DNA from: a virus
Length of the DNA stretch: 37,540 nucleotides
Virus record (IMG/VR): IMGVR_UViG_3300024260_000029
Span: 1-37,540 of that record
Reading direction: 5' to 3' (one strand)
How positions within the stretch are numbered: the stretch's first letter is position 1; the number at the start of each line of letters is the position of its first letter. The translations under genes and the position numbers were made by a program. Positions 4,642 to 31,873 of this stretch are shown here, piece by piece. The notes under the pieces were generated by a model. It was not told the DNA's origin. It worked only from the letters and a program-made list of their open reading frames with translations, and ran no database searches.

Positions 4642-4649
4642 GTTATGCT

Positions 4650-4718
4650 CCTTTTATTTTTGTTTTAAGTCTTATAAGCTTATAGTACATACTTAATAAA
4701 TATATACTATGAAATTAT
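4650..4718 (-). repeat. Leader repeat copy A (~65 bp)
   Basis: First of three near-identical intergenic elements, each directly upstream of a minus-strand accessory gene. It contains an internal dyad ATAGTACATA (4682-4691) / TATATACTAT (4701-4710) with a conserved CTTAATAAA centre, followed by AAGTCTTATAAGCTTAT and an AAAATAAAAGG ribosome-binding leader. Compared with copies B and C, the mismatched position in the dyad differs but stays G-U compatible. It differs also by forming TATAAGCTTATA. Confidence 0.85.
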
Positions 4719-4722
4719 TTGC

Positions 4723-4936: not shown

Positions 4937-5272
4937 TCACTTTTCCCCAATATATCCCGCATAATACACACAAACAAATAGATCTTGATGTTTTTTAAGA
5001 TCTTTATCACTCATAAACTCATAATATAAATGTATATTATCTTTAGTAATAGTAATCTGTTTTAAAATCTCACTATTTCTTTTTTGAGCCATTACTTGAC
5101 CTTCTTCTAGAGTTTTATAAGTATGTAAAAAGCCATATGATTCTCTGTTATATTTATGTTCACCATCAATTATAAACCATTTGCCTTTTTTAACTACATC
5201 TAATTCTTTAGTTTTTAATAACTTCACACCATTCACCAATGTTTTTTCGTAATTTATATAATTTTTATTCAT
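4937..5272 (-). CDS. Hypothetical protein, 111 aa, possibly truncated by UGA
   Basis: It starts with a good ribosome-binding site (AAAAGGGTAAATT) directly behind leader repeat B. The product is Lys-rich and soluble, with an N-terminal motif 'KGKWFIIDGEHKYNRESYGFLHTYKTLEEGQVMAQKR'-like alpha/beta layout (positions ~28-65). It is not recognised. It ends at a TGA beyond which the frame continues for 57 codons (see 4763-4936), so the full-length ancestral gene may have been about 169 codons. UGA followed by A is not a particularly leaky context, so loss by mutation is at least as likely as readthrough. Confidence 0.55.
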   Translation of the reverse strand: MNKNYINYEKTLVNGVKLLKTKELDVVKKGKWFIIDGEHKYNRESYGFLHTYKTLEEGQVMAQKRNSEILKQITITKDNIHLYYEFMSDKDLKKHQDLFVCVYYAGYIGEK

Positions 5273-5279
5273 AATTTAC

Positions 5280-5349
5280 CCTTTTATTTTTGTTTTAAGT
5301 CTTATAAACTTAATAGTATATACTTAATAAATACATACTATAAATTTAT
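5280..5349 (-). repeat. Leader repeat copy B (~65 bp)
   Basis: Second copy of the intergenic leader element, just upstream of the 111-aa gene. The dyad is ATAGTATATA (5313-5322) / TACATACTAT (5332-5341) around CTTAATAAA. It is nearly identical to copy C over its whole length and differs from copy A at a few positions. Confidence 0.85.
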
Positions 5350-5767: not shown

Positions 5768-5950
5768 TTATTTTTGTTCATTTATATAAATGTATTCTTG
5801 ATAATTAGCTTCTTCTTCTTCTTGGTAAGCCAATGTATCATCTAATGAAATAATAGCCATAGATATCATCCATACGGTAAATGAACATAGGCTTATAAAT
5901 AATATAAAGCTTTTTAGATTGTCTTTGTTCGTGTTTAATAGTTTATTTAT
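5768..5950 (-). pseudogene. Small membrane protein frame whose expected ATG is ATA
   Basis: The frame of 60 codons begins with ATA at 5950 in the exact position where the downstream gene has ATG: 'ATA AAT AAA CTA TTA AAC ACG' versus 'ATG AGT AAA CTA TTA AAC ACG'. A ribosome-binding site (AAGGATATAAA) is in place. The product has one membrane segment (SFILFISLCSFTVWMISMAI) and an acidic Glu-rich tail. Either ATA is used as a rare start or the start has been lost by a G-to-A change. The next ATG would cut the membrane segment in half. Leader repeat C is directly upstream. Confidence 0.5.
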
Positions 5951-5960
5951 TTTATATCCT

Positions 5961-6027
5961 TTTTTGTTGCTTTAAGTCTTATAAACTTAATAGTATATAC
6001 TTAATAAATACATACTATAAATTTATT
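5961..6027 (-). repeat. Leader repeat copy C (~65 bp)
   Basis: Third copy of the leader element, upstream of the ATA-started membrane-protein frame. The dyad is ATAGTATATA (5990-5999) / TACATACTAT (6009-6018) around CTTAATAAA, the same as copy B. The 3' leader part is shorter and changed (TTTTTGTTGC replaces the TTTTATTTTTGTTT of copies A and B). Confidence 0.85.
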
Positions 6028-7219: not shown

Positions 7220-7256
7220 CTTAGTCTGCATGTTTCTCCCTCTGTTTCAGACTAAG
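7220..7256. repeat. Inverted repeat, 9-bp perfect arms
   Basis: CTTAGTCTG (7220-7228) and CAGACTAAG (7248-7256) enclose a 19-base pyrimidine-rich loop. It is upstream of the rightward promoter candidate and could be an operator, a terminator for incoming transcription, or a hairpin of the late leader. Confidence 0.6.
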
Positions 7257-7263
7257 TGTTTAA

Positions 7264-7290
7264 TGTCTTATCGTCTAATGGCAGGACATC
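7264..7290 (+). other. tRNA-like 5' fragment (Glu/Gln D-arm type)
   Basis: TCGTCTAATGGCAGGACATC (7271-7290) closely resembles the position 8-27 segment (D-arm) of bacterial tRNA-Glu and tRNA-Gln ('TCGTCTAGTGGCTAGGACA'). No convincing anticodon arm, T-arm or matching acceptor 3' half follows. It is at most a tRNA remnant or chance likeness. Confidence 0.35.
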
Positions 7291-7304
7291 CACTTATCAT
7301 ATCC

Positions 7305-7333
7305 TTGACATTATTCACGACTTTTGGTTATAG
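7305..7333 (+). promoter_or_regulatory. Rightward promoter candidate for the late operon
   Basis: TTGACA (7305-7310), a 17-base spacer, then TTATAG (7328-7333). A transcript would start just before the AAAAGG ribosome-binding site of the gene at 7352. The -35 matches consensus and the -10 is moderate. It is the only sigma70-like signal I find for the ~18 kb plus-strand operon. Confidence 0.55.
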
Positions 7334-7351
7334 TTCTTAAAAAGGATTAAT

Positions 7352-7609
7352 ATGTTTATATGTGAATACTGTGATAAAGAACTGAAGAATAAGGGTGGTC
7401 TAACTAGACACTTAAATAATTGTAAGATGAAAATCAATGAAGATAATATTGTTAATGCTGGGGCTACGGTTCAGGAAGTTAAGGTTGAATTAGTTAATTA
7501 CTATGAAGGTCATAAAAGAAGAGAAATAAAGCTTAGGGGGTTACTTAGTAGAACATTTGACCCAGTTGAAAGAGAGAAGATATGTAAGATTCTAGTAGAG
7601 GAATTCTAG
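7352..7609 (+). CDS. C2HC zinc-finger protein at head of late operon, 85 aa
   Basis: The N-terminus is a classical-looking single finger: FICEYCDKELKNKGGLTRHL followed by NNC, with C4, C7, H20 and C25 as ligands (a C2H2-type finger with the last His replaced by Cys). The remaining ~55 residues are charged and helical (VQEVKVELVNYYEGHKRR ... REKICKILVEEF). Single fingers of this kind occur in several phages next to terminase genes and probably bind DNA. It starts behind AAAAGGATTAAT and ends one base before the next gene. It could help recognise the packaging site or regulate late transcription. The function is inferred from position only. Confidence 0.65.
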   Translation: MFICEYCDKELKNKGGLTRHLNNCKMKINEDNIVNAGATVQEVKVELVNYYEGHKRREIKLRGLLSRTFDPVEREKICKILVEEF

Positions 7610-7610
7610 T

Positions 7611-8156
7611 ATGATGATTGAAAAGCATGTTCAACGAAAACTTATGAAAGTAGTTGAAGATCCTGAGAAGGGTAAGTATGCTGAATATGTTCTGATGGTT
7701 CTATCTGGAAGTAAGAAGGGAGAAGCTTTAAAAGAAGTATTCCCTGATAGACATGCTAGAGCTATAGAAAGATCTGCAGGTAACAGTAGGGTTATTGGAG
7801 CTAATGTTAAGAAAGAAATTAGTCAGATTGAAAGAACTAAAGTATGTAAAGAACTATTTGAACAGAGTCATAAGACTTGGTGGATTAGTTTCCTTGATAA
7901 GAAACATGCATTGTATGAGAATCTATATGGTATGGCTGTTAATTATGATGTATCACCTAGAGATAGAGTTGCTGCATCTAAGGTAATGTTAGAACATATG
8001 CCTTCTTTTCAGGAAGATATTAATGTTAAGGTTGAGGTTAAACAATCTAAAGATGATTTTGTTACTGAGTTAAGATCTATGCAGAAGAAACTACATACTG
8101 CTGCTAATCAAGATGCTATAGACATTGAGGTATTAGAAGTTGTCGAATCTAAGTAA
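7611..8156 (+). CDS. Probable terminase small subunit, 181 aa
   Basis: Assigned by position directly upstream of, and overlapping, TerL, and by layout. A helical N-terminal region with 'YAEYVLMVLSGSKKGEALKEVFPDRHARAIERSAGNSRVI' (about residues 24-65) looks like a helix-turn-helix DNA-binding segment. The middle helices have 'DVSPRDRVAASKVMLEHMPSF' typical of oligomerising small terminases, where reactions to 'R..A...L.'-type motifs recur. The C-terminal tail is variable. Small terminases bind the packaging start site and hand DNA to the large subunit. Sequence-level recognition is modest, so this is a context-weighted call. Confidence 0.65.
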   Translation: MMIEKHVQRKLMKVVEDPEKGKYAEYVLMVLSGSKKGEALKEVFPDRHARAIERSAGNSRVIGANVKKEISQIERTKVCKELFEQSHKTWWISFLDKKHALYENLYGMAVNYDVSPRDRVAASKVMLEHMPSFQEDINVKVEVKQSKDDFVTELRSMQKKLHTAANQDAIDIEVLEVVESK

Positions 8157-9675
8157 GTGTAAACCTGAACAAGAAGGTAGTGCAATATTCACTGAGAACT
8201 TCTGGGCTAATCAGTCTGGAACTAAAGCTATTAATGCTCAAGGAAATAGAGATAAAGCTGAGGCTGTAATGTTATTTGGACAGACTTACTTCAATGATCA
8301 CTTTCCTAGTAAGCATCCAGTAATACATACTGATATGTTAGCATTAATGAATAGTGATAATAAGTTGAAAGCTGTTGCTTATCCTAGAGGACATGCAAAG
8401 AGTACAGTTATTACATTCCTGTTGGCTTTATATCGTATTGTCTTTCAGGAAAGAAAGTTTATTGTTATTGTATCTGATTCAGAAGATAAAGCTAAAGATT
8501 TCGTTATTCGTATTAGGAATGAGTTAGAATTTAATGCTAAGTTAAAGAGAGACTTTACACAAACTGGTGAGTTTAAAAGTATTGATTGGGCTAAGACAGA
8601 TTTTACTACTAGTACTGGTATTAGAGTTGTAGCTAAAGGTGCTGGACAATCAATGAGGGGTTTACTACATAAAGATACTAGACCTGATATGATCGTATTG
8701 GATGATATTGAAACTAATGAAACTGCTGGAACTGATTCAGTATTACACTTCATTCTTACTGATGTATTACCTTCTGTTAATAAGAGAGGTATATATGATG
8801 TTTGCTATGTAGGTACTATATTAAGAGATATGAGTTGTTTACATAGAATATTAACCAATCCAGAATGGACTAGTGCTAAGTATGAAGCTGTTAATGAAGA
8901 TGGTGATATGATTGCTCCTATGTTGCTTCCTAAGAGTGAATATGAGAAGGCAAAAAGAATGTATCAAGAGCTAGGTAAGATGAGTGTATTTTATAGTGAA
9001 ATGCATAATAATCCTATGGTTGCTGATGATGAATTAACATTCAAGCATGAATACTTTCAGCACATTGAGAATAAAGATGTTCCTGAAGGATGTAATTATT
9101 ATATTGCTTATGATCCTGCTATGCCTCCAAGTGGTAGAACCAAGATCAAAAAAGTAGATAAGAGTGCATTAATTGTATTGGCTACTGACTCTAAAGAGAA
9201 CTGGTATGTTGTTAAGGTATTTGCTAATCGTGGTACTCCACAAGACAATAGGAAGCTATTGATTAATTTAATGAAGAAGTATCAACCTAAGGTTACTTGG
9301 ATAGAAACTATTGCTGCTCAAAGAGCTATGTATTTAGAGATTAAGAAGTATATGCAAGACAATAATGTTAAGTATCCATTGAGAGAAATCTATAGTCATA
9401 AAGGGTCAAAAGAAGGTAGAATTGAACAACTACAGCCCTTATATGAGAGTGGTAGAATTTATCATATTAGTAAGCAAGATCAAGGTATTCAGGATTTAGA
9501 AAGAGAGTTAATGCTATTTACTAGAACTCCACATGATGATATTTCTGATTGTCTATCTTTCTTTATTGGTCAAGTAAAGTATCCAAGAGATATGGTTTCA
9601 TCGAGTAATACGGTAATTGATCCTTGGGCTAAATACTTCAAGAAAGATGTCTCAGCAGACTGGAAAATACTTTAA
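8140..9675 (+). CDS. terL: Terminase large subunit (TerL)
   Basis: A 511-aa packaging ATPase/nuclease. Walker A is YPRGHAKST at residues 81-89, Walker B is DMIVLDDIE near 183-191. The RNase-H-like nuclease domain shows YIAYDPAM (Asp325), WIETIAA (Glu389) and HDDISD (465-470), giving the expected acidic triad. It powers DNA translocation into the prohead through the portal and cuts concatemers. The only sensible start is TTG at 8140, overlapping the small subunit by 17 bases, with GAGG about nine bases upstream. The next ATG would remove ~40 residues. Length is normal for the family. Confidence 0.95.
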   Translation: MSNLSKCKPEQEGSAIFTENFWANQSGTKAINAQGNRDKAEAVMLFGQTYFNDHFPSKHPVIHTDMLALMNSDNKLKAVAYPRGHAKSTVITFLLALYRIVFQERKFIVIVSDSEDKAKDFVIRIRNELEFNAKLKRDFTQTGEFKSIDWAKTDFTTSTGIRVVAKGAGQSMRGLLHKDTRPDMIVLDDIETNETAGTDSVLHFILTDVLPSVNKRGIYDVCYVGTILRDMSCLHRILTNPEWTSAKYEAVNEDGDMIAPMLLPKSEYEKAKRMYQELGKMSVFYSEMHNNPMVADDELTFKHEYFQHIENKDVPEGCNYYIAYDPAMPPSGRTKIKKVDKSALIVLATDSKENWYVVKVFANRGTPQDNRKLLINLMKKYQPKVTWIETIAAQRAMYLEIKKYMQDNNVKYPLREIYSHKGSKEGRIEQLQPLYESGRIYHISKQDQGIQDLERELMLFTRTPHDDISDCLSFFIGQVKYPRDMVSSSNTVIDPWAKYFKKDVSADWKIL

Positions 9676-9719
9676 GAAAAGATTAAGATTGAATATATTA
9701 AGATTGAAAAATAAGGATC

Positions 9720-11468
9720 ATGATGACAAACACAGATAAGAAAGCTAGTAAGCTTAATTCAAATTCAGTACTTGAACCATTAGAAAGATGGTTTTCAGAT
9801 GACTCTACTTGGGATCAAGAATGGAGAGATAATTCTACTTCTTGGTATCAGTTCTATCATGGAGCACAATGGACTTCTGAAGAACAATCAGCATTGAGAG
9901 ATAGAGGTCAAGCTGTAATTACATTTAATCATATTAAGCCTGCAATAGATTCTATTATTGGTTCAGAAAGACAGAATAGACCTAAGATAACTATGGCTGG
10001 TAGAACTCTTGATGATCAACAGATAGCTCAAGTTAAGACAAGTTTATATGATTATATTCAATATTCAAGCAATACTGATGATGAGTTAGATTCTGTAGTT
10101 AAAGATGCATTTGTTGCTGGTAGAGGATGGATGTATGTATATCCTGAATTGGATGGTAGTGAGTTTATTGATTTAAGACATTCTCATGTTGACTATAGGG
10201 ATATGTTTATTGATGCAATGTCTAAGAAAGATGATATGTCTGACTGTAGAAGAATACATAGGGCTGTATTTACAGATGAAGATATTGTTAAGCAATCTTT
10301 CCCTAAATATAGAGAACATACTTCAAGTGATAGTGATTATTTCATATCTTCAAGTGAAGAGAATATGTGGTATGAGAAGGGTGATAGAACTAGACCTAGA
10401 TTAATTAATTCTTGGTATAGAGATGAGAATGGTGCTATTACTACTGTTATCTGGGTTAGAGGACAAATACTTTATTTTAAGAAAGAACCATATACTTTAG
10501 ATAAATTTCCTTTTGTACAATATACTATAGAAAGAGATATTAACAATACTCCATATGGGTTAGTTAAGAATATGGTAGATGCTCAAACAGAAGTTAACAA
10601 GAGACACTCTAAAGCATTACATTATTTAAATGCTAAACAAGTATTAGCTGAAGAGAATGCATTTGTTGATTGGAATGAAGCTAAGAAGACTCTTGCTAAA
10701 CCTGATGGTATTACTAAGTTACAAGATGGTGCATTAGCTGAAGGTAGAGTTCAAGTTATTGATAATACTCCACTAGCTGGATCACATATTCAGTTATTAG
10801 AATTAGCTAAGTCTGAGATATTAGGTGTTGCTGGTATCAATGGTGCATTTGTAGGTCAATCAAGTCAATATGAATCTGCTAAGAAAGCTAATATGTCTAT
10901 AGCTGCTTCTCAAACTACTTTAGTTCCTTTATTGAACAAGTTAAGAATAGCTAGATATGATATTGCTGATATTACTATGAAATTAGTTCCTGACTTCTAT
11001 ACAGATGAAAAGATGATTAGAGTTATTGAACCTAATGGTGCTTATGCATTTATGCCAGTAAACAATACTGTACTGTTAGATGATAATACCTTAGCTAAGA
11101 AGAATGATCTAACTAATCAAGATGTTGATATTATGATTGAAGATGCTCCTAAGAGTCTTAATGAGAGAGAAGAACAGTTTGCTCAACTATTACAGATTCA
11201 AGGTCAAACTGCTAATCCTGTTCCAATGGATGTACTATTGAGATATAGTGCTCTTAAAGATAAGCATCAATTAGCTGATGATATTAAAGCACAGAATGAT
11301 CTTCAGGCTCAATTACAACAAGCTGGTGGATACATTGAACAACTACAACAACAAATACAACAACTTGGTGGTCAAGTACAACAACAACAGTCAGTGATTG
11401 TTCAGACTCAAACAGCAAGAGCAGTAGACAAAGAAGTAGCTAAAGCTAAAGAAGGTATGGGACTATAG
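9720..11468 (+). CDS. Portal protein, P22-like
   Basis: The 582-aa protein forms the dodecameric DNA entry ring at one capsid vertex. The N-terminal region 'WYQFYHGAQWTSEEQSALRD' followed by 'RGQAVITFNHIKPAIDSIIGSERQNRPKI' is the signature of P22-type portals. The C-terminus is very Gln-rich with a helical barrel-like pattern (EQLQQQIQQLGGQVQQQQS), also seen in P22 gp1 relatives. It starts behind AAGGATC. It lies between TerL and the scaffold in the standard packaging/head order. The 44 bases before it carry a duplicated ATTAAGATTGAA. Confidence 0.93.
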   Translation: MMTNTDKKASKLNSNSVLEPLERWFSDDSTWDQEWRDNSTSWYQFYHGAQWTSEEQSALRDRGQAVITFNHIKPAIDSIIGSERQNRPKITMAGRTLDDQQIAQVKTSLYDYIQYSSNTDDELDSVVKDAFVAGRGWMYVYPELDGSEFIDLRHSHVDYRDMFIDAMSKKDDMSDCRRIHRAVFTDEDIVKQSFPKYREHTSSDSDYFISSSEENMWYEKGDRTRPRLINSWYRDENGAITTVIWVRGQILYFKKEPYTLDKFPFVQYTIERDINNTPYGLVKNMVDAQTEVNKRHSKALHYLNAKQVLAEENAFVDWNEAKKTLAKPDGITKLQDGALAEGRVQVIDNTPLAGSHIQLLELAKSEILGVAGINGAFVGQSSQYESAKKANMSIAASQTTLVPLLNKLRIARYDIADITMKLVPDFYTDEKMIRVIEPNGAYAFMPVNNTVLLDDNTLAKKNDLTNQDVDIMIEDAPKSLNEREEQFAQLLQIQGQTANPVPMDVLLRYSALKDKHQLADDIKAQNDLQAQLQQAGGYIEQLQQQIQQLGGQVQQQQSVIVQTQTARAVDKEVAKAKEGMGL

Positions 11469-11525
11469 TCCTATGTCGAGCTGGACATTAAACGAAGCAT
11501 ATCTAACACAGAAGGATATTCTAAT

Positions 11526-12275
11526 ATGAGGAATTATATTGAGGAATTAGGAATGGGTATTCCTGATGATGCCACACCTGCAACGGAAGCATCACTAAAT
11601 ACACCAAATGAAGATGAGAGTCTTGTACAAGGTTCTGAAGAACCAAACTCTGATGCTACCACAGATGCAACAGGGATGGATGATACTGCAAACACAGAAA
11701 CAGCAGATGATTCAAGGTTAAGTGATCTACAAAAGCAGATTGAAGGTATGGAAAAACGAATGGCTGATAAAGATAAGTATATCAATGAGCTACGAGAAAT
11801 GTCTAAAGCCAAAGAAGAAGCTAGTGAAGACACTACAGATAATGACGATACTACTGATGACTTTTGGGATGACCCAGAAGCTAAGTTTAAAGAGATGCAG
11901 AATACAATGAAGATTCAGGCAATGCAAATTCAGGAAACTGTTTATGCTAATACTGTTGATAACTATTGGAAGACAGTTAATCCAGAAGCCTTACAAGAGG
12001 CTGTAGCTACTGATGCTGAGTTCAATCAAGAGTTCAATAGTAGTGCTGAACCTTATAAGACTGCATACGAGTATTTAACGAATAAGACAAAGAAGAAAGA
12101 AGTAGATAGTCAGACTCTAAGAGACAGCATAAAAGCTGAGCTTATTAAAGAGATGGGACTTGAGACTAAACAGAAGAAAGATGGCGTGCCTAACATCAAT
12201 AAGATGGGTGGTAGCTCTAGTTCAACTAAGTCTCAAGAATCTGATGATGGCTTTGCTTCTATCTTTGGTCAATAA
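11526..12275 (+). CDS. Capsid scaffold protein
   Basis: A 249-aa highly acidic protein with Asp/Thr/Glu-rich N-terminal half and a central coiled coil (LSDLQKQIEGMEKRMADKDK). The C-terminus is basic then Ser/Gly-rich, the usual layout of a scaffold that binds coat protein through a C-terminal charged segment. It lies directly between portal and major capsid genes. No protease motif is visible. The ATG has AAGGATATTCTA upstream. Confidence 0.85.
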   Translation: MRNYIEELGMGIPDDATPATEASLNTPNEDESLVQGSEEPNSDATTDATGMDDTANTETADDSRLSDLQKQIEGMEKRMADKDKYINELREMSKAKEEASEDTTDNDDTTDDFWDDPEAKFKEMQNTMKIQAMQIQETVYANTVDNYWKTVNPEALQEAVATDAEFNQEFNSSAEPYKTAYEYLTNKTKKKEVDSQTLRDSIKAELIKEMGLETKQKKDGVPNINKMGGSSSSTKSQESDDGFASIFGQ

Positions 12276-12293
12276 AAGCTATAAGGAATTAAA

Positions 12294-13256
12294 ATGGCAA
12301 ACACATCAATATTAACATCACACGGATTAAGTCAAACTCAATGGGAAGCTGGTTTATATAAGAAATACCAAGAACAAACATTCTTTGGTAAGTTTAAAGG
12401 TACGGATGAAAACTCTCCTATCCAAGTAAAAAGAGAATTAGAAAAGTCTGCTGGAGATACAATTAGGTTTGGTCTTGCTGGTACATTAAGTGGTTCTGGA
12501 GTTACTGGTAATAACCCATTAACTTATACTGCACTTGAAGGTGTTGGTTCAGGTAATGAAGAGTCTATGACTTTCTATGACCAAGGTGTAGCTATCGGTC
12601 AAATCAGAAATGGTGTAAGAATCGCTGGTAAGTTAGATGAGCAAAGAGTTGCATTTAATTTAAGAAATCAAGCTAAAGGTCAATTAACTGATTGGATGGC
12701 AAGAAATGAAGATGCTGCAATCTTTACAGCTATCAATGGTGCTGATGTAGTAGATATTTCTGCTTCAGTTGAAGCTTCTGGACAAATTGCATTAGACGAT
12801 ATCGTATTAATGAAAAAAGAAGCAATGTTCCCTTCAGGATCTACTAAGAAGATTAGACCTATTTCTATGGCTAATGGTGAAGAAGTATTTATTCTTGGAA
12901 TGAATCCAGATGATGCTGTTGGTCTTAAACAATCTGCTGATTGGAAGACTGTTCAAGCTAATGCAGGTAAAAGAGGTGGAGACAATAGATTATTCACTGG
13001 TGCTTTAGGTGAGTATGACAATGTTGTTATTCATTCACATTCAGGTTTTGCAGCTGGTTCTCCAGTATTAATGGGTGCTCAAGCAGCATTCTTAGCTTAC
13101 TCAAATGAAGTAATCTATGGTGAAGAAGCATTTGATCATGGTAACCAAAACAGTTACATGATTGGTTCTATTAGAGGTGTTGAATTAGCAGTGTTTAATG
13201 ACGGTGTTAGTAATGCAGGTTCTCACGGAGCAATCAAATTCGATATTACTGTATAG
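12294..13256 (+). CDS. Major capsid protein, N4 gp56/DUF4043-like
   Basis: A 320-aa coat subunit. It begins ANTSILTSHGLSQTQWEAGL and contains 'KYQEQTFFGKFKGTDENSPIQVKRELEKSAGDTI' and 'GNEESMTFYDQGVAIGQIRNGVRIAGKLDEQRVAFNLR', the core of the N4-gp56/DUF4043 family of HK97-fold capsids. Codon use is less degenerate and more regular than in neighbours, consistent with high expression. It has AAGGAATTAAA upstream and a UUCG hairpin just after its stop. Confidence 0.92.
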   Translation: MANTSILTSHGLSQTQWEAGLYKKYQEQTFFGKFKGTDENSPIQVKRELEKSAGDTIRFGLAGTLSGSGVTGNNPLTYTALEGVGSGNEESMTFYDQGVAIGQIRNGVRIAGKLDEQRVAFNLRNQAKGQLTDWMARNEDAAIFTAINGADVVDISASVEASGQIALDDIVLMKKEAMFPSGSTKKIRPISMANGEEVFILGMNPDDAVGLKQSADWKTVQANAGKRGGDNRLFTGALGEYDNVVIHSHSGFAAGSPVLMGAQAAFLAYSNEVIYGEEAFDHGNQNSYMIGSIRGVELAVFNDGVSNAGSHGAIKFDITV

Positions 13257-13271
13257 TAATTATTGATTTAT

Positions 13272-13293
13272 AGGACTCTCTTCGGAGGGTCTT
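13272..13293 (+). terminator. UUCG-capped hairpin after the major capsid gene
   Basis: AGGACTCTC (13272-13280) pairs with GAGGGTCTT (13285-13293) over nine positions (two G-U) around a c(UUCG)g tetraloop. ATTAAGTTTAT follows, only moderately T-rich. It probably lets most transcripts end or be protected after the coat gene, raising coat mRNA over distal genes. Confidence 0.75.
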
Positions 13294-13317
13294 ATTAAGT
13301 TTATAGAAAGGATATAA

Positions 13318-13902
13318 ATGACAGTTAGAGATTTACTACATAAAACAAGAGATACACTTCAAGATACAGATGGAGACTATTGGTCTGATTCAGAACTACT
13401 TGATTACTACAATGGTGGTATTAAAGCAATGGCAAGCGAGAGGTTAGAAGAGCCTAAGACTACAGTTCTTAATTTACTTACTGGTACTTATGAATATAAT
13501 GTTGATGGTATACTGAGGTATATATCTGCTAAAGATAGTAATGGTACTGTTAGATCTTTACATCCTGATGATACTTCTGGAGATGAAGAAAGTAATGGTA
13601 TTATTGTTCTTGATTATGATAGGATCTATGTTAATACTCCAGTAACTAATGTTGCTGTATCTATTAAGCATATTGCTATTCCTGCTAATCAGAACCTTAA
13701 TGATACTGTTAGATCTGGTGATGAGAATACACTTAAATATTTTATGATGAGTAAAGCATATGAGAAAGAAACTGATATGGAAAACTTTCAGAAGTCTCAA
13801 TACTTTGATCAGAAATATATGCAGGGAGTTAAGACGGTTAAGAAGACAAGTGCTCTTGGTTATGTTGAGCAAACAGAAGTTATACAAGGATATTATTACT
13901 AA
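13318..13902 (+). CDS. Head-tail adaptor protein (DUF6682-like)
   Basis: A 194-aa protein starting MTVRDLLHKTRDTLQDTDGD followed by YWSDSELLDYYNGGIKAMASE. This is the hallmark of phage adaptor proteins (DUF6682 and relatives) that dock under the portal and connect to the tail nozzle. The rest is beta-rich with 'RSLHPDD' and a C-terminal helix (LKYFMMSKAYEKETDMENFQ). It begins after the UUCG hairpin with AAAGGATATAA upstream and overlaps the next gene by one base. Confidence 0.85.
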   Translation: MTVRDLLHKTRDTLQDTDGDYWSDSELLDYYNGGIKAMASERLEEPKTTVLNLLTGTYEYNVDGILRYISAKDSNGTVRSLHPDDTSGDEESNGIIVLDYDRIYVNTPVTNVAVSIKHIAIPANQNLNDTVRSGDENTLKYFMMSKAYEKETDMENFQKSQYFDQKYMQGVKTVKKTSALGYVEQTEVIQGYYY

Positions 13903-14210
13903 TGGCAAAGGTTATTTCAGATATTTCAATAGAAGCAGGTTATCCATACTTATTTAATTTAAACATGGACGATGCTGATGGTAACGATTTAGAGAATGAT
14001 TATACTTGTTGGTTCGAATGTGAATCAATAGGTAAGTTACAATTCTCTGTTGATTCAGATAAGTATACTTTAACTATCAGTAAAGAAAACACTGGTAAGC
14101 TAGTTAAGAACTTAGAAGAGTATGTTGTATATACAACAAAGACTACAGATGGTACATATGATAAATTACTTTCTGGAAGAATGCATATAGATAAGAAAGT
14201 AAGGACTTAG
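13902..14210 (+). CDS. Small beta-sandwich structural protein, 102 aa
   Basis: A beta-rich protein: 'LFNLNMDDADGNDLENDYTCWFECESIGKLQFSVDSDKYTLTISKENT' and a C-terminal 'LLSGRMHIDKKVRT'. This layout (short strands ending in 'L.G.I.I') is common for small phage structural proteins just upstream of tail fibres, possibly adaptors for the fibre base. It overlaps the adaptor gene by one base and is followed after one base by the fibre gene, so stoichiometric expression is likely. Exact role is unknown. Confidence 0.7.
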   Translation: MAKVISDISIEAGYPYLFNLNMDDADGNDLENDYTCWFECESIGKLQFSVDSDKYTLTISKENTGKLVKNLEEYVVYTTKTTDGTYDKLLSGRMHIDKKVRT

Positions 14211-14211
14211 A

Positions 14212-15921
14212 ATGGAAGTAAATATTACTAGAGGTGTAACTGAAACCAGCTTAGCTAATGCAATAGCAGTAGCAAGAGAAGCTAGAGATACAGCAGAGGG
14301 ATATAGAGATGATTCAGCTACTAGTGAATCTAATGCTGGAAGCTCAGAAGATGTAGCCTTAGCTCAAGCAGGTATAGCAACAACTAAAGCTAGTGAAGCT
14401 AGTACTTCTGCCTCAACTGCAACAGAACAAGTAGGATTGGCTTCTGCTAAAGCTACAGACTGTCAACTGTTGGCAACAAATACATCAGCTCAGTTTCAAT
14501 TATCAAATGGAGATTACGCTTACTCTACTGTTCATTATATGAACCTTGCTGAAGATGCTAGAGATGCAGCAGAAGTATTCAAGAATGATGCTAGTGCATC
14601 AGAAAGCAATGCTAGTACTTCTGAGAGTAACGCAAGTACATCAGAAAGCAATGCTAGTACTAGTGAAGCAAATGCATTAACATATTCTAATAACTCTTCT
14701 ACATCAGCAGGACAGTCAGCAACTAGTGCAGGTAATGCAGCAACTAGTGCAACGAACTCAGAGAGTCATGCTAATTCAGCTGGTGTATCGGCTACTAATG
14801 CAGCAGCAAGTGCAGCCATTGCTATTGGTACGGCTTATGGTTTAGGTTGGAATGAATCTACGGACGTGTATACAAGAACTGGAGATAGTGCTTTTACTAC
14901 TATCCAATCTAAAATGAGAAGATGTTTATTAGCAGTAAATGGTACAGTAAATGCATATTTACATTCTATTAATTCAAACTATACAGAGTCAGGTTCAATT
15001 GCTGATTTAACAGGAGCTAATGGTAATGTAATGGTAGAGATACCTAAGTTTTACTATAAATATAACTATGTGGGAACTACTCACTCACACTCAATTTCAT
15101 TAGTGCCCTTATCAGGTTATAGCGTACATCCTGCATTTTTAAAAGCTGGTGTAGAAGTTGAAAATAGATACATTGGTGCTTATGGTGCATCTGTAAGTGG
15201 AAGTACACTTATTTCAGCAAGTGGTGTATATCCTGCTGGTTCAATGACTAGAGGTTCGTTTAGAACTAAAGCTGCTGCAATTGGTTCAGGTTGGGCATTG
15301 CAAGATTGGAATTTAATTAGTGCTGTACAGCTACTGATGCTTATTGAGTTTGGTACTTTTAATTCACAGAGTGCTATTGGTCAAGGAAGAACTCAATTAT
15401 CAGGTGGAACTTGGTCAAATGGTTCGTATATTGGAATTAATGGTAGAAGTGATACCTCTGGTAATGCTACTGGAAATCATGAATATTCAGGTGATGCAGA
15501 TGATGAAGCTGCTGATTTAGCTTTCATGTCTTATAGAGGAATTGAAGACTTCTTTGGAAATATTTGGAACTGGGTAGATGGTATTAATATTCAAGATAAT
15601 GTGCCATTTATTAATAATAATCCATCAACTTTTGCAGATGATGTATTTAGTGGGGACTATGTGAATGCTGGAATTACTATGGCAAATGCTAATGGTTGGC
15701 AAAATACTTTAGAGCAAGTTGGGACTGGATTCTTCCCTGCTTCGGTTGGTGCGGGTTCAAGTACTAAAATTACAGATTACTATTATCAATCTGCAGGGAA
15801 TAGGGTCGTGGTGCTCGGTGGTGATGCGGATGATGGTTCGGGTGCTGGTGCTTTCTATCTGTATGCGGCGTATTCTTCGGGTAATTCGGGTGCGCTTGTC
15901 GGCTCGGTCTTGTCATTTTAG
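14212..15921 (+). CDS. Tail fibre with C-type-lectin-like, DGR-type variable C-terminus
   Basis: The 569-aa protein has three parts. An N-terminal attachment region and Ala/Ser-rich coiled repeats (units of 'SESNAST' at about 125-150) form the shaft. The body (~235-500) has 'VEIPKFYYKYNY', 'GYSVHPAFLKAG', 'YIGAYGAS', 'LISAVQLLMLIEFGTFNSQ' and 'YRGIEDFFGNIWNWVDGINI', the layout of C-type-lectin/FGE-like receptor-binding domains. The last ~45 residues (SAGNRVVVLGGDADDGSGAG, then AFYLYAAYSSGNSGALVGSV) match the pattern of variable regions diversified by DGR reverse transcriptases. It should bind the host receptor. The DNA of the last ~120 bases differs sharply in composition from the rest of the gene. 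No RT gene is in view. Confidence 0.9.
   Translation: MEVNITRGVTETSLANAIAVAREARDTAEGYRDDSATSESNAGSSEDVALAQAGIATTKASEASTSASTATEQVGLASAKATDCQLLATNTSAQFQLSNGDYAYSTVHYMNLAEDARDAAEVFKNDASASESNASTSESNASTSESNASTSEANALTYSNNSSTSAGQSATSAGNAATSATNSESHANSAGVSATNAAASAAIAIGTAYGLGWNESTDVYTRTGDSAFTTIQSKMRRCLLAVNGTVNAYLHSINSNYTESGSIADLTGANGNVMVEIPKFYYKYNYVGTTHSHSISLVPLSGYSVHPAFLKAGVEVENRYIGAYGASVSGSTLISASGVYPAGSMTRGSFRTKAAAIGSGWALQDWNLISAVQLLMLIEFGTFNSQSAIGQGRTQLSGGTWSNGSYIGINGRSDTSGNATGNHEYSGDADDEAADLAFMSYRGIEDFFGNIWNWVDGINIQDNVPFINNNPSTFADDVFSGDYVNAGITMANANGWQNTLEQVGTGFFPASVGAGSSTKITDYYYQSAGNRVVVLGGDADDGSGAGAFYLYAAYSSGNSGALVGSVLSF
15790..15918 (+). other. Putative DGR variable region (VR)
   Basis: By hand count, 15801-15900 is 56% G+C and only 9% A, against 36% G+C and 29% A for 15601-15700 of the same gene. 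It encodes the GNRVVVLGG ... GAFYL ... GS(V)LSF pattern with invariant GGT/GCT/TCG codons and variable positions largely free of A. Loss of A is what adenine-directed mutagenic retrohoming produces. A short imperfect hairpin (CTTGTC 15909-15914 / GGCAAG 15925-15930) spans the stop codon, where DGR homing signals are found. No template copy is visible in the window. Confidence 0.75.
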
Positions 15922-15941
15922 TATGGCAAGGTTAGTTTAAT

Positions 15942-16070
15942 ATGACAAAGGGCAGTTTATTAGTCGTGAAACTCAGCAATGGATTTAACCTTTGGAAGAA
16001 ATATATAACTTATGAAGTTAAGAATATATTTGTACAATTAAAAATAAAAAACAAGATACCAGGAGTATAA
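15942..16070 (+). CDS. Possible 42-aa ORF downstream of the variable region
   Basis: ATG at 15942 to TAA at 16070, with AAGG about ten bases upstream. The product (MTKGSLLVVKLSNGFNLWKK, then YITYEVKNIFVQLKIKNK) is basic and helical. By eye 'NLWKKYITYEVKNIF' recalls the start of DGR reverse transcriptases ('NLFEKI.S.ENL..A'), so it could be the stump of a lost RT; this is a weak likeness. It may also be non-coding spacer between fibre and chaperone-like gene. Confidence 0.3.
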   Translation: MTKGSLLVVKLSNGFNLWKKYITYEVKNIFVQLKIKNKIPGV

Positions 16071-16071
16071 A

Positions 16072-16386
16072 ATGTTAGTAAAATCAGATACAAGACCAGA
16101 GGCAACAGAGTTGCTACAAGGTAAGAAACTAATCAATTTTGACATTAAAGAAGTTGAAATTAAAGATGAAAATAGTGAAGATATTAGAGTTGGGTTTGAA
16201 TATCTACAAGCAAAAGTAGAATTAAATACTACAAGAAGTGGTATTATAGAAGCAATTATAGCGACTAAATATTCAGCTGGTGCAGAAATTGCATTAACTA
16301 ATGACAAAGATACTAAACAAGATGATTATAAAGCATATCAAGAGTTTAGAGTATTAGCTAAAGAATTAGCAGAATTGAATTTATAA
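16072..16386 (+). CDS. Possible tail-fibre accessory protein, 104 aa
   Basis: A small soluble protein (LVKSDTRPEATELLQGKKLI ... LNTTRSGIIEAIIATKYSAG ... AEIALTND) with a helix-rich C-terminus (QDDYKAYQEFRVLAKELAEL). Proteins of this length and composition directly after fibre genes often act as fibre assembly chaperones or small structural parts. The end 'YQEFRVLAKELAELNL' resembles tail-assembly chaperone C-termini ('EYQAWRQ.L..LA'). The start has a good ribosome-binding site (CCAGGAGTATAAA). Function is inferred from position and shape. Confidence 0.6.
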   Translation: MLVKSDTRPEATELLQGKKLINFDIKEVEIKDENSEDIRVGFEYLQAKVELNTTRSGIIEAIIATKYSAGAEIALTNDKDTKQDDYKAYQEFRVLAKELAELNL

Positions 16387-16435
16387 ACTTAAAACAAAAC
16401 AATAGGAAATAAAATGAGATTATTAGGAGTAACAA

Positions 16436-16645
16436 ATGATTAATATAGCATTCGTATTATTAAAAGAGATATTGCTATCTATGGTGGCTAAGGTTGCATT
16501 CAAAGCAGTAGCAGAGAGGTTTGCTACAAGACTTGTAGTATATGGATTAAAGAAACTAGAAGGGTATTCAACTAATGAAGTAACTTCTGGATTAGTACAA
16601 GACATATTAGCTTCATTAGAAGGTAAAGGATTAAAGGCACTATAA
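16436..16645 (+). CDS. Small amphipathic protein, possible holin, 69 aa
   Basis: The N-terminal ~35 residues are hydrophobic with a few charges (MINIAFVLLKEILLSMVAKV, AFKAVAERFATRLVVYGLKK), suggesting a membrane-associated helix. The C-terminal half is soluble. It lies between the fibre accessory gene and a coiled-coil/TM protein, two genes upstream of the endolysin, so a lysis role (holin or pinholin-like) is plausible. The ribosome-binding site is TTAGGAGTAACAA. No holin family is recognised. Confidence 0.5.
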   Translation: MINIAFVLLKEILLSMVAKVAFKAVAERFATRLVVYGLKKLEGYSTNEVTSGLVQDILASLEGKGLKAL

Positions 16646-28889: not shown

Positions 28890-30302
28890 CTAGTCATAAA
28901 GGAGACGGAGCAAATCTTCTTGCTCATCATTTAGTTTCTCAGCTTCAATCTCTTCAGCTTGATCTACTTCCTTTAATATCTCTTCAGTCTTTTCATCTTG
29001 TTTAGTAACACTATAATAAACTACTCCTTTTCGAGATACTTCTTTCCATAGATAATTCTTTTCACTACTAAGCTCTTTAGTTAGTTTAATAACTTCTTCT
29101 ATCTTCTTTGTCCACCCACTAGGAATAAACGGATAAGACAAAAAGTGCTGATTGGTGCAAGGATTACTTTCTTCTAGCATTCTTTCCAGCAGTCTATGAT
29201 GTAAGGGCTTTAGTTTAGTAATCTCTGTTAATACCCTACTAGATTCATCTATTATCTCTTTTGCTTGTTGCATATGCTCTATCTCTACTTTGTCTTTCTC
29301 TTCAAAGAAGGCATAAATAGAAGCCAACTTAACAAGTTTAAATACTCTATTAAGCATATCAGACTGTACTGCTTCTGCCAATCCCTTATTAGTCTTAACA
29401 AAGTTCTCACCTTCACATTGCACCTGAGCATAGAACAACATAGCTTCATCTGTTAAAGTCAACACACTATTCATCTTCTTTGCAGATATAAGATTTCTTA
29501 TTCTTTCCCTGTCTGGAAGTCTATCTTTCTTTATCTGTTCAGTAGCTCTCATCTCTTTTACTACATCTGCTGGAGATCTCTCTTCTACTTCTACTGTTTT
29601 ATCGTCTGAAAACACAAACCTTCTTCCATATCCAGTCTTTAATAAATTCTGAAAAGCAAACTCAATATTGTCTCCATTGATTAGCTTTGACTTGTCTCCA
29701 TAAGCATATAGGTTTACTGGTATTCCATCTATGTCTAATGGATTATTATCTGACCTCTTTAGTTGTGCTGGAAAATCTCCATTATTATAACACTCCAGCA
29801 ATATATCAAACAAATCAGCTTTGCCCACTACTGCATCAGCTACTTCATCTACAGATAAGTTAACATTTCCCACTCCTACAAGATATGCTGTTTCACTAGC
29901 ACTATACAGTCCAGACAAAGTAGCATTAGAAGCTTTAGGAGTCCAAGCTTGCAAAGCTCTCTCTATTCCGTCATTTTCTAGTTTCTGTATAGCTTTCTTC
30001 TTAAACTTAGGATATACCTCTTTTTTCATGTAATCAAAAGCCAAAGAGAAGTACATATTGTCTAGCAAGTTAACACCAATACTTTTACCACTCCCACTAG
30101 GGCTAAAGCTCAAACCATAGAAATTTGATACTGCTGTACCAAAACCTGCTTCTGTGTCTACACACACTCTCATCTGTCCTGCAATGCTTGCCATCTTAAA
30201 GTGGACAGCACTACAAGCCAATCCTAGTCCCATTGATAGTTTAGCTTTCTGTAAGTCTTTTACCATTTTTTGAACCAATGGATTTAATTTTCGTATGTCC
30301 AT
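28890..30302 (-). CDS. DUF3987-type replicative helicase/ATPase
   Basis: 470 aa from ATG 30302; an upstream ATG at 30347 would overlap the HNH gene and lacks a ribosome-binding site, whereas CAGGAGGATTTGT precedes 30302. Walker A is LSFSPSGSGKS (about residues 64-74) and Walker B-like is NLSVDEVADAV. 'TLSGLYSASETAYLVGVGNV' precedes it as in YfjI/DUF3987 proteins, which pair with PrimPol-type primases in phages and plasmids. I infer a DNA-unwinding role in replication. The C-terminal ~60 residues are acidic and helical. Confidence 0.82.
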   Translation of the reverse strand: MDIRKLNPLVQKMVKDLQKAKLSMGLGLACSAVHFKMASIAGQMRVCVDTEAGFGTAVSNFYGLSFSPSGSGKSIGVNLLDNMYFSLAFDYMKKEVYPKFKKKAIQKLENDGIERALQAWTPKASNATLSGLYSASETAYLVGVGNVNLSVDEVADAVVGKADLFDILLECYNNGDFPAQLKRSDNNPLDIDGIPVNLYAYGDKSKLINGDNIEFAFQNLLKTGYGRRFVFSDDKTVEVEERSPADVVKEMRATEQIKKDRLPDRERIRNLISAKKMNSVLTLTDEAMLFYAQVQCEGENFVKTNKGLAEAVQSDMLNRVFKLVKLASIYAFFEEKDKVEIEHMQQAKEIIDESSRVLTEITKLKPLHHRLLERMLEESNPCTNQHFLSYPFIPSGWTKKIEEVIKLTKELSSEKNYLWKEVSRKGVVYYSVTKQDEKTEEILKEVDQAEEIEAEKLNDEQEDLLRLLYD

Positions 30303-30778
30303 ACAAATCCTCCTGCTGTATATTGTTTTTTGTTGATGTTTACACAACTAGCTATGTTCCCAACAGTTATGCCAGTCACTCTACTTGCTTCATTGATTGA
30401 GATATAAGTACCAACATTCGTTCCATCTTTAGTCACTTGTCTTACAGCTCTATGTGGTCTTCCTGAGCTTATATCTCCTCTTATGCAATCATAGTGCCCT
30501 TTTCTTCTGTTATCTTGGAAAGTCATCAGCTGTATGTTGTCAAGAGTGTATCCTTTGTGATTATTAATTCTGTCTACACTTGGTTTCATATTTTTGGTAT
30601 GTCCTGTATTTTCCCAGTATTCAAACAGTATATGAAATATATCTTGATTCATAATCCACCAACCAAACTCTTCTTTTGTATAGGCTGGCATATCAAAGCC
30701 TCTTGATTTACACTTAGACCTCTGATGACTATAAAGCTTAGTTATCACACCTTTCTTTGTTTTGTCATATTTGTTCAT
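30284..30778 (-). CDS. HNH homing endonuclease with NUMOD-type tail
   Basis: 164 aa. The HNH core is 'MKPSVDRINNHKGYTLDNIQ' followed by 'LMTFQDNRRKG' (D-R-I-N-N-H ... N-I-Q ... N-R-x-K-G). The C-terminal 'TKDGTNVGTYISINEASRVT' and 'GITVGNIASCVNINKKQYTA' is a NUMOD1-like DNA-binding helix repeat ending GGFVWTY. Freestanding homing endonucleases of this layout insert between phage replication genes, as here between the 82-aa gene and the helicase. It overlaps the helicase start by 19 bases and the upstream gene by 14. Confidence 0.88.
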   Translation of the reverse strand: MNKYDKTKKGVITKLYSHQRSKCKSRGFDMPAYTKEEFGWWIMNQDIFHILFEYWENTGHTKNMKPSVDRINNHKGYTLDNIQLMTFQDNRRKGHYDCIRGDISSGRPHRAVRQVTKDGTNVGTYISINEASRVTGITVGNIASCVNINKKQYTAGGFVWTYEN

Positions 30779-31013
30779 CTATCTTTCCTTGTACCATGGT
30801 AGCACCATCCATTATGCTTTGATAATGATCTTCATCTCCTTTAATCTCTATCTTCACAGTAAAGACCTCTCCATTATGTTTATATCCTAGCCCAACATAC
30901 CTTCTCATAACGGATCTATCAAACCACACTTCAACTTGTGGACTTAAATATCTTTCTATCATGGCATGTCTTATTGCTTGATAATCTACCTCTTCTCTTT
31001 TTGATGTTGACAT
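30765..31013 (-). CDS. Hypothetical protein, 82 aa
   Basis: Not recognised. Residues 5-25 form a helix (REEVDYQAIRHAMIERYLSP), followed by two or three strands (VEVWFDRSVMRRYVGLGYKH) and a C-terminal helix. Its size and position between primase and helicase suggest a replication-accessory role, unproven. Strong ribosome-binding site AAGGGAGAAAAG. Ends within the start of the HNH gene. Confidence 0.55.
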   Translation of the reverse strand: MSTSKREEVDYQAIRHAMIERYLSPQVEVWFDRSVMRRYVGLGYKHNGEVFTVKIEIKGDEDHYQSIMDGATMVQGKIDEQI

Positions 31014-31024
31014 CTTTTCTCCCT

Positions 31025-31873
31025 TTATATGAATTGTTGTACATACTTTAAAGACTCTCTAAAAGTCATACCTTCTAACTCCATAAGTACATGAAAGATA
31101 TCACCACTTATTTCTTTAGAACCATAGTCACATATATATCCTGATTCATATATCTTAGCACTACTTGTATTCTCTTCGGGTCTCAACTTGCACTTACCAT
31201 TGACAAACTCTATGCCAATAGATTCTAATACATCTTGTATCATCTCAGTAGTTAGTTGTTTTTTAATATCTTCTAAGCTACTACTACCATAACTATTAAT
31301 TAAATCTTTATCTATAACTATCTTTTCAACATACTCAGATTCTAGTTGTTTCTTAGCCAATTCTTTAGCTTTAAAGCAATCTAATAGTTTACCTTCGTTC
31401 TTTAAAACAATACAATCACTTGTTCCTAGAAATGAAGCAGTCTTAGTTAAAGTCTGTTCATCATTGAATGGAAACATTAGTTCTAACATTCTAAAGTAAA
31501 CATCATGTTCTCTTGGAATATTAATAGCTGGTATTAATACTCTAAACCTATCAGAAACAATACCTTTCTTTTCAAGCTGATGTGATTTAGTTGTAGCAAT
31601 GATATATTTATATTTACTAAACAAAGATTGAAAATCTACTATAGACATACCATCATCGATATCAATAATGATACAGTTCTGATTAGATCTATCAAAGTTC
31701 TTACTAGACTTGATTCCTTTGTCCCACGCATAGCATGAATATTGTATTTTACTACTAGACATAGGTTTATGTATGTCTTCCCAAGTAACTGCCTTAGATC
31801 TCCAACCCTTTAGTGTAAGATGATATGCATCTGTAACTTTTCCTTTTAACTTTATAAAGCTTATATTAATCAT
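31025..31873 (-). CDS. AEP/PrimPol-type primase with degenerate CHC2-like tail
   Basis: 282 aa. The archaeo-eukaryotic primase core shows NCIIIDIDDG (Asp71, Asp73, Asp74) for metal binding and 'KYIIATTKSHQL ... GIVSDRFRVLIPA' (S/H-x-H-equivalent and R-F-R-V). The C-terminus 'RPEENTSSAKIYESGYICDY' followed by 'GSKEISGDIFHVLMELEGMT' aligns by eye with the CHC2 zinc domain of DnaG primases, but the zinc Cys are mostly missing. It would make primers for DNA synthesis, working with the neighbouring DUF3987-type helicase. Its ATG overlaps the methyltransferase stop by eight bases. Confidence 0.78.
   Translation of the reverse strand: MINISFIKLKGKVTDAYHLTLKGWRSKAVTWEDIHKPMSSSKIQYSCYAWDKGIKSSKNFDRSNQNCIIIDIDDGMSIVDFQSLFSKYKYIIATTKSHQLEKKGIVSDRFRVLIPAINIPREHDVYFRMLELMFPFNDEQTLTKTASFLGTSDCIVLKNEGKLLDCFKAKELAKKQLESEYVEKIVIDKDLINSYGSSSLEDIKKQLTTEMIQDVLESIGIEFVNGKCKLRPEENTSSAKIYESGYICDYGSKEISGDIFHVLMELEGMTFRESLKYVQQFI

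Follow-up and report, generated by a model that had tools for sequence, protein, structure and literature searches.

The tip of the tail fibre encoded by this phage is, with a probability of about 0.92, a former target of a diversity-generating retroelement (DGR) whose template repeat (TR) and reverse transcriptase (RT) gene have been deleted and whose last variable region (VR) now persists as fixed sequence. The evidence comes from comparing the fibre tip with related viral contigs that retain an intact DGR, and from a deletion scar directly behind the fibre gene that can be read to the base.

The DNA analysed here (the window) is the complete entry for IMG/VR record IMGVR_UViG_3300024260_000029, 37,540 bases classed as linear, which may be less than the whole phage genome; it carries packaging, portal, coat, tail, lysis and replication genes. 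Elsewhere in the window, two genes on the minus strand (28890-31873) match separate parts of one primase family (phrog_2135) whose order is permuted, and an ORF between them (30284-30778) looks by eye like an HNH endonuclease; three direct repeats, each about 70-86 nt long and 87-93% identical to one another, lie between small genes at 4649-4719, 5264-5349 and 5942-6027. The features at the fibre locus are as follows.

14212-15921, plus strand: tail-fibre gene, 569 aa, probable former DGR target (ORF; phrog_5302 tail protein, E 5e-82)
15022-15918, plus strand: predicted C-type-lectin (FGE-type) domain containing the variable region (AlphaFold, Foldseek and profile match)
15804-15899, plus strand: predicted VR (25 of 26 mismatches to the TR of relative L007 at adenines; minimum of A)
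15897-15915, plus strand: candidate initiation-of-mutagenic-homing site (IMH), with boundaries deduced from alignments
15909-15930, plus strand: 8-bp hairpin spanning the stop codon, of doubtful role (fold)
15922-15962, plus strand: leader between VR and TR, with the same sequence as in intact relatives
15963-15976, plus strand: putative TR 5' stub of 14 nt, GTCGTGAAACTCAG (alignment to intact relatives)
15974-15976, plus strand: putative deletion junction with CAG microhomology, 1,145 bp absent (alignment to relatives)
15975-16070, plus strand: putative RT 3' stub, the last 31 codons, SNGFNLWKKYITYEVKNIFVQLKIKNKIPGV, plus the stop (tblastn and alignment)
15942-16070, plus strand: chimeric 42-codon predicted ORF, leader and TR start fused to RT end, a likely product of the deletion

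The tip domain was modelled from a 28-sequence alignment (pLDDT 78.7, pTM 0.84), which replaced an unusable first model built from 9 sequences (pLDDT 38.5). The best Foldseek match to the domain in the PDB was TaqVP (5vf4, E 1.6e-12); TaqVP chains were the only significant matches, with Mtd variants next at non-significant E values, and TaqVP was also the sole sequence-profile match (5vf4, E 2.3e-11). By model and Foldseek, then, the fibre ends in a C-type-lectin fold with its VR at the C terminus, as is expected of a DGR variable protein, and we infer that this VR-bearing tip faces the receptor and functions in receptor binding. PHROGs, Pfam and NCBIfam contained no DGR-specific target model naming the fibre. 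The preliminary description of this DNA had read the tip as a C-type-lectin variable region from the motif GNRVVVLGG ... GAFYL ... GS.LSF; the motif is present as stated in the ORF translation, and the reading itself is supported both by the fold and by the actual TR and RT of relatives.

Comparison of the C-terminal part of the fibre with viral contigs yielded 34 loci. Four of these (L002-L005) are 98-100% identical to the window, and a further seven (L006-L012) have 83-85% protein identity and about 94% DNA identity over the tip. In L006-L011, the six of these seven that reach beyond the tip, a TR and a gene for a 345-aa RT lie directly behind the fibre. The RT of these intact relatives matches RVT_1 and the reverse transcriptase family phrog_1423 (E 1e-106), and its best solved-structure match is 8ub7, which we take to be the BPP-1 DGR complex. 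It has a YCDD box and the sequence GNYMSQ, an instance of the GxxxSQ motif of DGR RTs (PMC12386605), and on these grounds we classify it as a DGR-type enzyme. A more distant intact relative (L166) keeps the VR-TR-RT order, with an RT that is 79% identical. A search with PF05635 (Avd) gave no match beside the intact cassettes, and none in any control genome either. Two intact contigs, L007 and L010, are identical over the 400 nt before and the 70 nt behind the VR, yet 20 of the 96 positions in their VRs differ, and all but one of these, 19, correspond to TR adenines. Because the two differ in the VR amid identical flanks, the cassette of the intact group looks active.

The TR used for comparison with the window was that of L007, since the window has no full TR. 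TR adenines account for 25 of the 26 mismatches between the window VR and this TR over 96 nt (hypergeometric 4e-15), and the remaining one is a T>G change; the two thus differ almost solely at TR adenines, as a DGR target and its template do, and the alignment identifies 15804-15899 as the predicted VR. At 15897-15915, the differences between the candidate IMH and the corresponding IMH* of the TR are identical in every VR of the close group, and the 5' end of the window VR, the candidate IMH and the leader are identical to those of the intact relatives. The base composition is equally distinctive: positions 15801-15900 contain 9 A and 56 G+C per 100 nt, against 29 A and 36 G+C per 100 nt at 15601-15700 upstream, exact counts that confirm the figures of the preliminary description. 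A scan of all 37.5 kb places the minimum of the plus strand here (8 A per 100 nt, for stretches starting at 15803-15815), and no other 100-nt stretch of the plus strand has 10 A or fewer. That description had taken the A depletion for the footprint of adenine-directed mutagenesis, an interpretation borne out by the mismatches to the TR.

Behind the fibre, positions 15917-15976 are identical to L007 at 60 of 60 nt, a stretch that takes in the leader and, about 40 nt past the fibre stop codon, the 14 nt with which the TR begins. From 15974 onwards the window instead aligns with the 3' end of the RT gene, matching L007 at 79 of 90 positions and L166 at 51 of 60, and the stub residues SNGFNLW are of the L166 type. 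Consistent with this alignment, tblastn with DGR RTs found a match at 15966-16067 with 73.5% identity. The TR start is joined in frame to the RT end at the trinucleotide CAG, which is common to the breakpoint sequences AAACTCAG in the TR and AA[A/G]CACAG in the RT (in L166, CAG lies within AAAC[T/A]CAG), and the missing piece measures 1,145 bp whether L007, L010 or L166 is the reference. As judged from these alignments, the TR and the RT gene were removed from the fibre locus by a 1,145-bp deletion; the relatives did not gain an insertion at an empty site, because the window keeps both the TR start and the RT end. The presence of CAG at both breakpoints suggests a microhomology deletion, a mechanism with which the Erf-like annealing protein encoded by the phage is compatible.

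Nothing else of the cassette was detected in the window. An RVT_1 search of the 37.5-kb record gave no match up to E 10, and an A-tolerant scan of these 37.5 kb detected no second VR copy, whereas the same scan recovered the known TRs of four control loci with 0-1 non-A mismatches. Of the TR and RT gene of a complete, active DGR, only the 14-nt 5' stub at 15963-15976 and the last 31 codons at 15975-16070 are present. The preliminary description was thus correct that the window has neither a full-length RT nor a second VR copy, though it had missed the TR and RT stubs behind the fibre. Outside the window, chance matches overwhelmed a scan with a 14-mer from the TR start, and longer patterns were used instead: the intact TR core is present in seven viral contigs, and its exact 32-mer is absent from a collection of bacterial and archaeal genomes, in which relatives of the RT reach at most about 53% identity. 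No host or trans donor was identified, since the genomes lack the TR 32-mer and hold no closer relative of the RT. As to where the RT might be, the same description had offered a missing part of the genome, another element, or loss; the scar shows that it was lost by deletion from the locus, and supply in trans is formally possible but unlikely.

The hairpin over the stop codon, which had been put forward as a homing signal, is a real stem at 15909-15930 (8 bp including one G-T pair, AT-rich, with a 6-nt loop). It stands out against shuffled sequences when excised (z -6.3) but not in longer context (z -1.5). Phage DGR targets have GC-rich stems of 7-10 bp with 4-nt GRNA loops (PMC3240598); the stem behind the VR folds but departs from this consensus, and no such hairpin forms in the intact relative L166. 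Given its base composition, its loop length and its absence from L166, we regard it as weak evidence and do not count it.

The scar is found in other contigs. An exact 24-mer spanning it occurs in three more, from metagenomes 3300024252, 3300024256 and 3300042104. Those from 3300024252 and 3300024256 match the window at 100% over 14.8 and 23 kb. The third (L244) has the window sequence at 7229-15257 and 15507-16240, with 23-odd differences at 15258-15506. Downstream, L244 is 99.3% like L010, a contig with an intact DGR. L005, a second contig of the 3300042104 series, has the same alleles as L244. All four scar-bearing records share one VR haplotype, L244 included despite its differing fibre just upstream. 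L244 (also L285; 3300042104_000055) has recombined near 15258-15506, and its DNA past 16375 is the part that resembles L010.

Several other explanations of the locus can be weighed against these data. That the A-poor tip is a mere quirk of codon usage or composition in an ordinary lectin-like domain might be argued from the A-poor tips of some RT-less relatives, but this reading is already refuted by the comparison with a real TR, in which 25 of 26 differences fall at adenines, and the tip is moreover the A minimum of the plus strand. Assemblers can be confused by TR/VR repeats, which raises the prospect that the deletion is an artefact and the DGR of the phage intact. We consider this very improbable: the parts joined are the TR start and the RT end rather than TR and VR, 11 of 90 nt in the RT stub depart from the L007 sequence, and the exact junction recurs in four records from different metagenomes. 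Nor is the scar the product of one bad assembly, because it is present in three more contigs, one of which (L244) has other fibre and downstream alleles. There is similarly little chance that a second, complete DGR resides in an unsequenced part of this genome. The record is linear and possibly incomplete, but the TR and RT of intact relatives adjoin the VR, the same site here is a deletion scar, and the record already has packaging, portal, coat, tail, lysis and replication genes.

Somewhat less improbable, although still unlikely, is that the VR is diversified in trans, with the intact DGR of a co-infecting or prophage-borne relative providing TR RNA and RT, and the cDNA homing to the VR. 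Such action by a co-infecting DGR phage is possible because the candidate homing signal is intact: the 5' end of the VR, the candidate IMH and the leader match those of intact relatives. In addition, the scar-bearing L244 runs into DNA like that of L010, indicating DNA exchange between phages with the scar and phages with an intact cassette. However, one VR is found in all four scar records, L244 among them, and the genome collection does not contain the TR core 32-mer. A stronger version, marginally less probable again, is that hypermutation has been outsourced, the phage keeping a homing-competent VR and IMH and using the TR and RT of relatives, as a satellite of their DGR. We instead favour loss of the cassette and a fixed last VR, and consider the tip most likely frozen, because no TR or RT is left in the 37.5 kb. 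The single VR in the scar records agrees with freezing; the divergence of their backbones is too small, and this agreement therefore has little power.

If the tip is a former DGR target, TR RNA would have been made just downstream of the fibre in an ancestor and copied by the DGR RT with random bases at adenines; replacement of the VR by this adenine-randomised cDNA would account for its A depletion. A later deletion of 1,145 bp, from the TR start to the RT 3' end at the CAG microhomology, would have eliminated template and enzyme and left the stubs, and the last VR written before it would have been inherited as ordinary fixed sequence. We infer this order of events. Relatives recovered through the coat protein reach no intact DGR on the same backbone, so the analysis did not capture this backbone in its ancestral form. 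As a side observation, contig L304 (3300037807_000422) has a portal 100% identical to that of this phage, together with the first part of its coat gene, and there are contigs with an intact DGR in datasets with neighbouring numbers (3300037842, 3300037875).

Apart from the fibre tip, DGR and adjoining downstream genes, the virus of L007 (L245) has almost nothing in common with the window, and its terminase belongs to another family; L166 has a lambda J-like tail gene. Because sharing is limited to tip, DGR and next genes, we conclude that the tip and DGR move as a block between unlike phages. Over 15020-16575, the tip, DGR and following genes are about 75-97% identical at the DNA level to L245 and L166, which have different terminases and tail types.

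The window and its intact relatives constitute a natural before/after pair for adenine mutagenesis, with the junction resolved to the base: near-identical tips vary between contigs where the mutator is present and show one haplotype so far where it is gone. Read data could thereby be used to test what DGR hypermutation costs and what it brings, and whether diversification in trans takes place. The case also indicates that RT-based surveys of DGRs miss targets whose cassette is lost.

Among the wider fibre relatives, MetMV (L036, 67.8 kb), G012 (L023, 116 kb) and G015 (L026, 42.5 kb) have A-poor VR-like tips, yet none of the three records gave an RVT_1 match or a TR; that of MetMV, a Methanosarcina virus, is a complete circular genome. 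These orphan VR-like tips imply that DGR loss recurs in the fibre family, in which the window is the best resolved case owing to its two surviving stubs and its close relatives with an intact cassette.

Among known systems, the nearest structure and profile match of the fibre domain is TaqVP, a variable protein of a Thermus aquaticus DGR (PDB 5vf4; PMC6328139), at about 20% identity; TaqVP comes from a prophage DGR, whereas the window protein has an additional long N-terminal fibre part. The locus resembles the DGR of Bordetella phage BPP-1 (mtd/TR/brt) in that the gene for a fibre with a probable receptor-binding role ends in the VR, VR and TR differ specifically at adenines, and the protein has a C-type-lectin fold; in the intact relatives only, an RT gene also lies downstream. 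Unlike BPP-1, the window has lost its TR and RT by deletion and lacks a GC-rich GRNA hairpin, its fold is nearest to TaqVP with Mtd distant, and no Avd gene was seen by the PF05635 search, which matched nothing in the control genomes. The same situation, a VR-like tip with a fragmented or deleted RT, has been described in Epsilon crAss-like phages, in some members of which RT is fragmented or deleted beside VR-bearing receptor-binding proteins (PMC11054128). Because RT loss has been reported there (PMC11054128), the present locus is a new case of a kind already known, and a well-resolved one: it comes from an unrelated group, its deletion can be read at the junction itself, fragments of both the TR and the RT gene persist, and close relatives keep the cassette.
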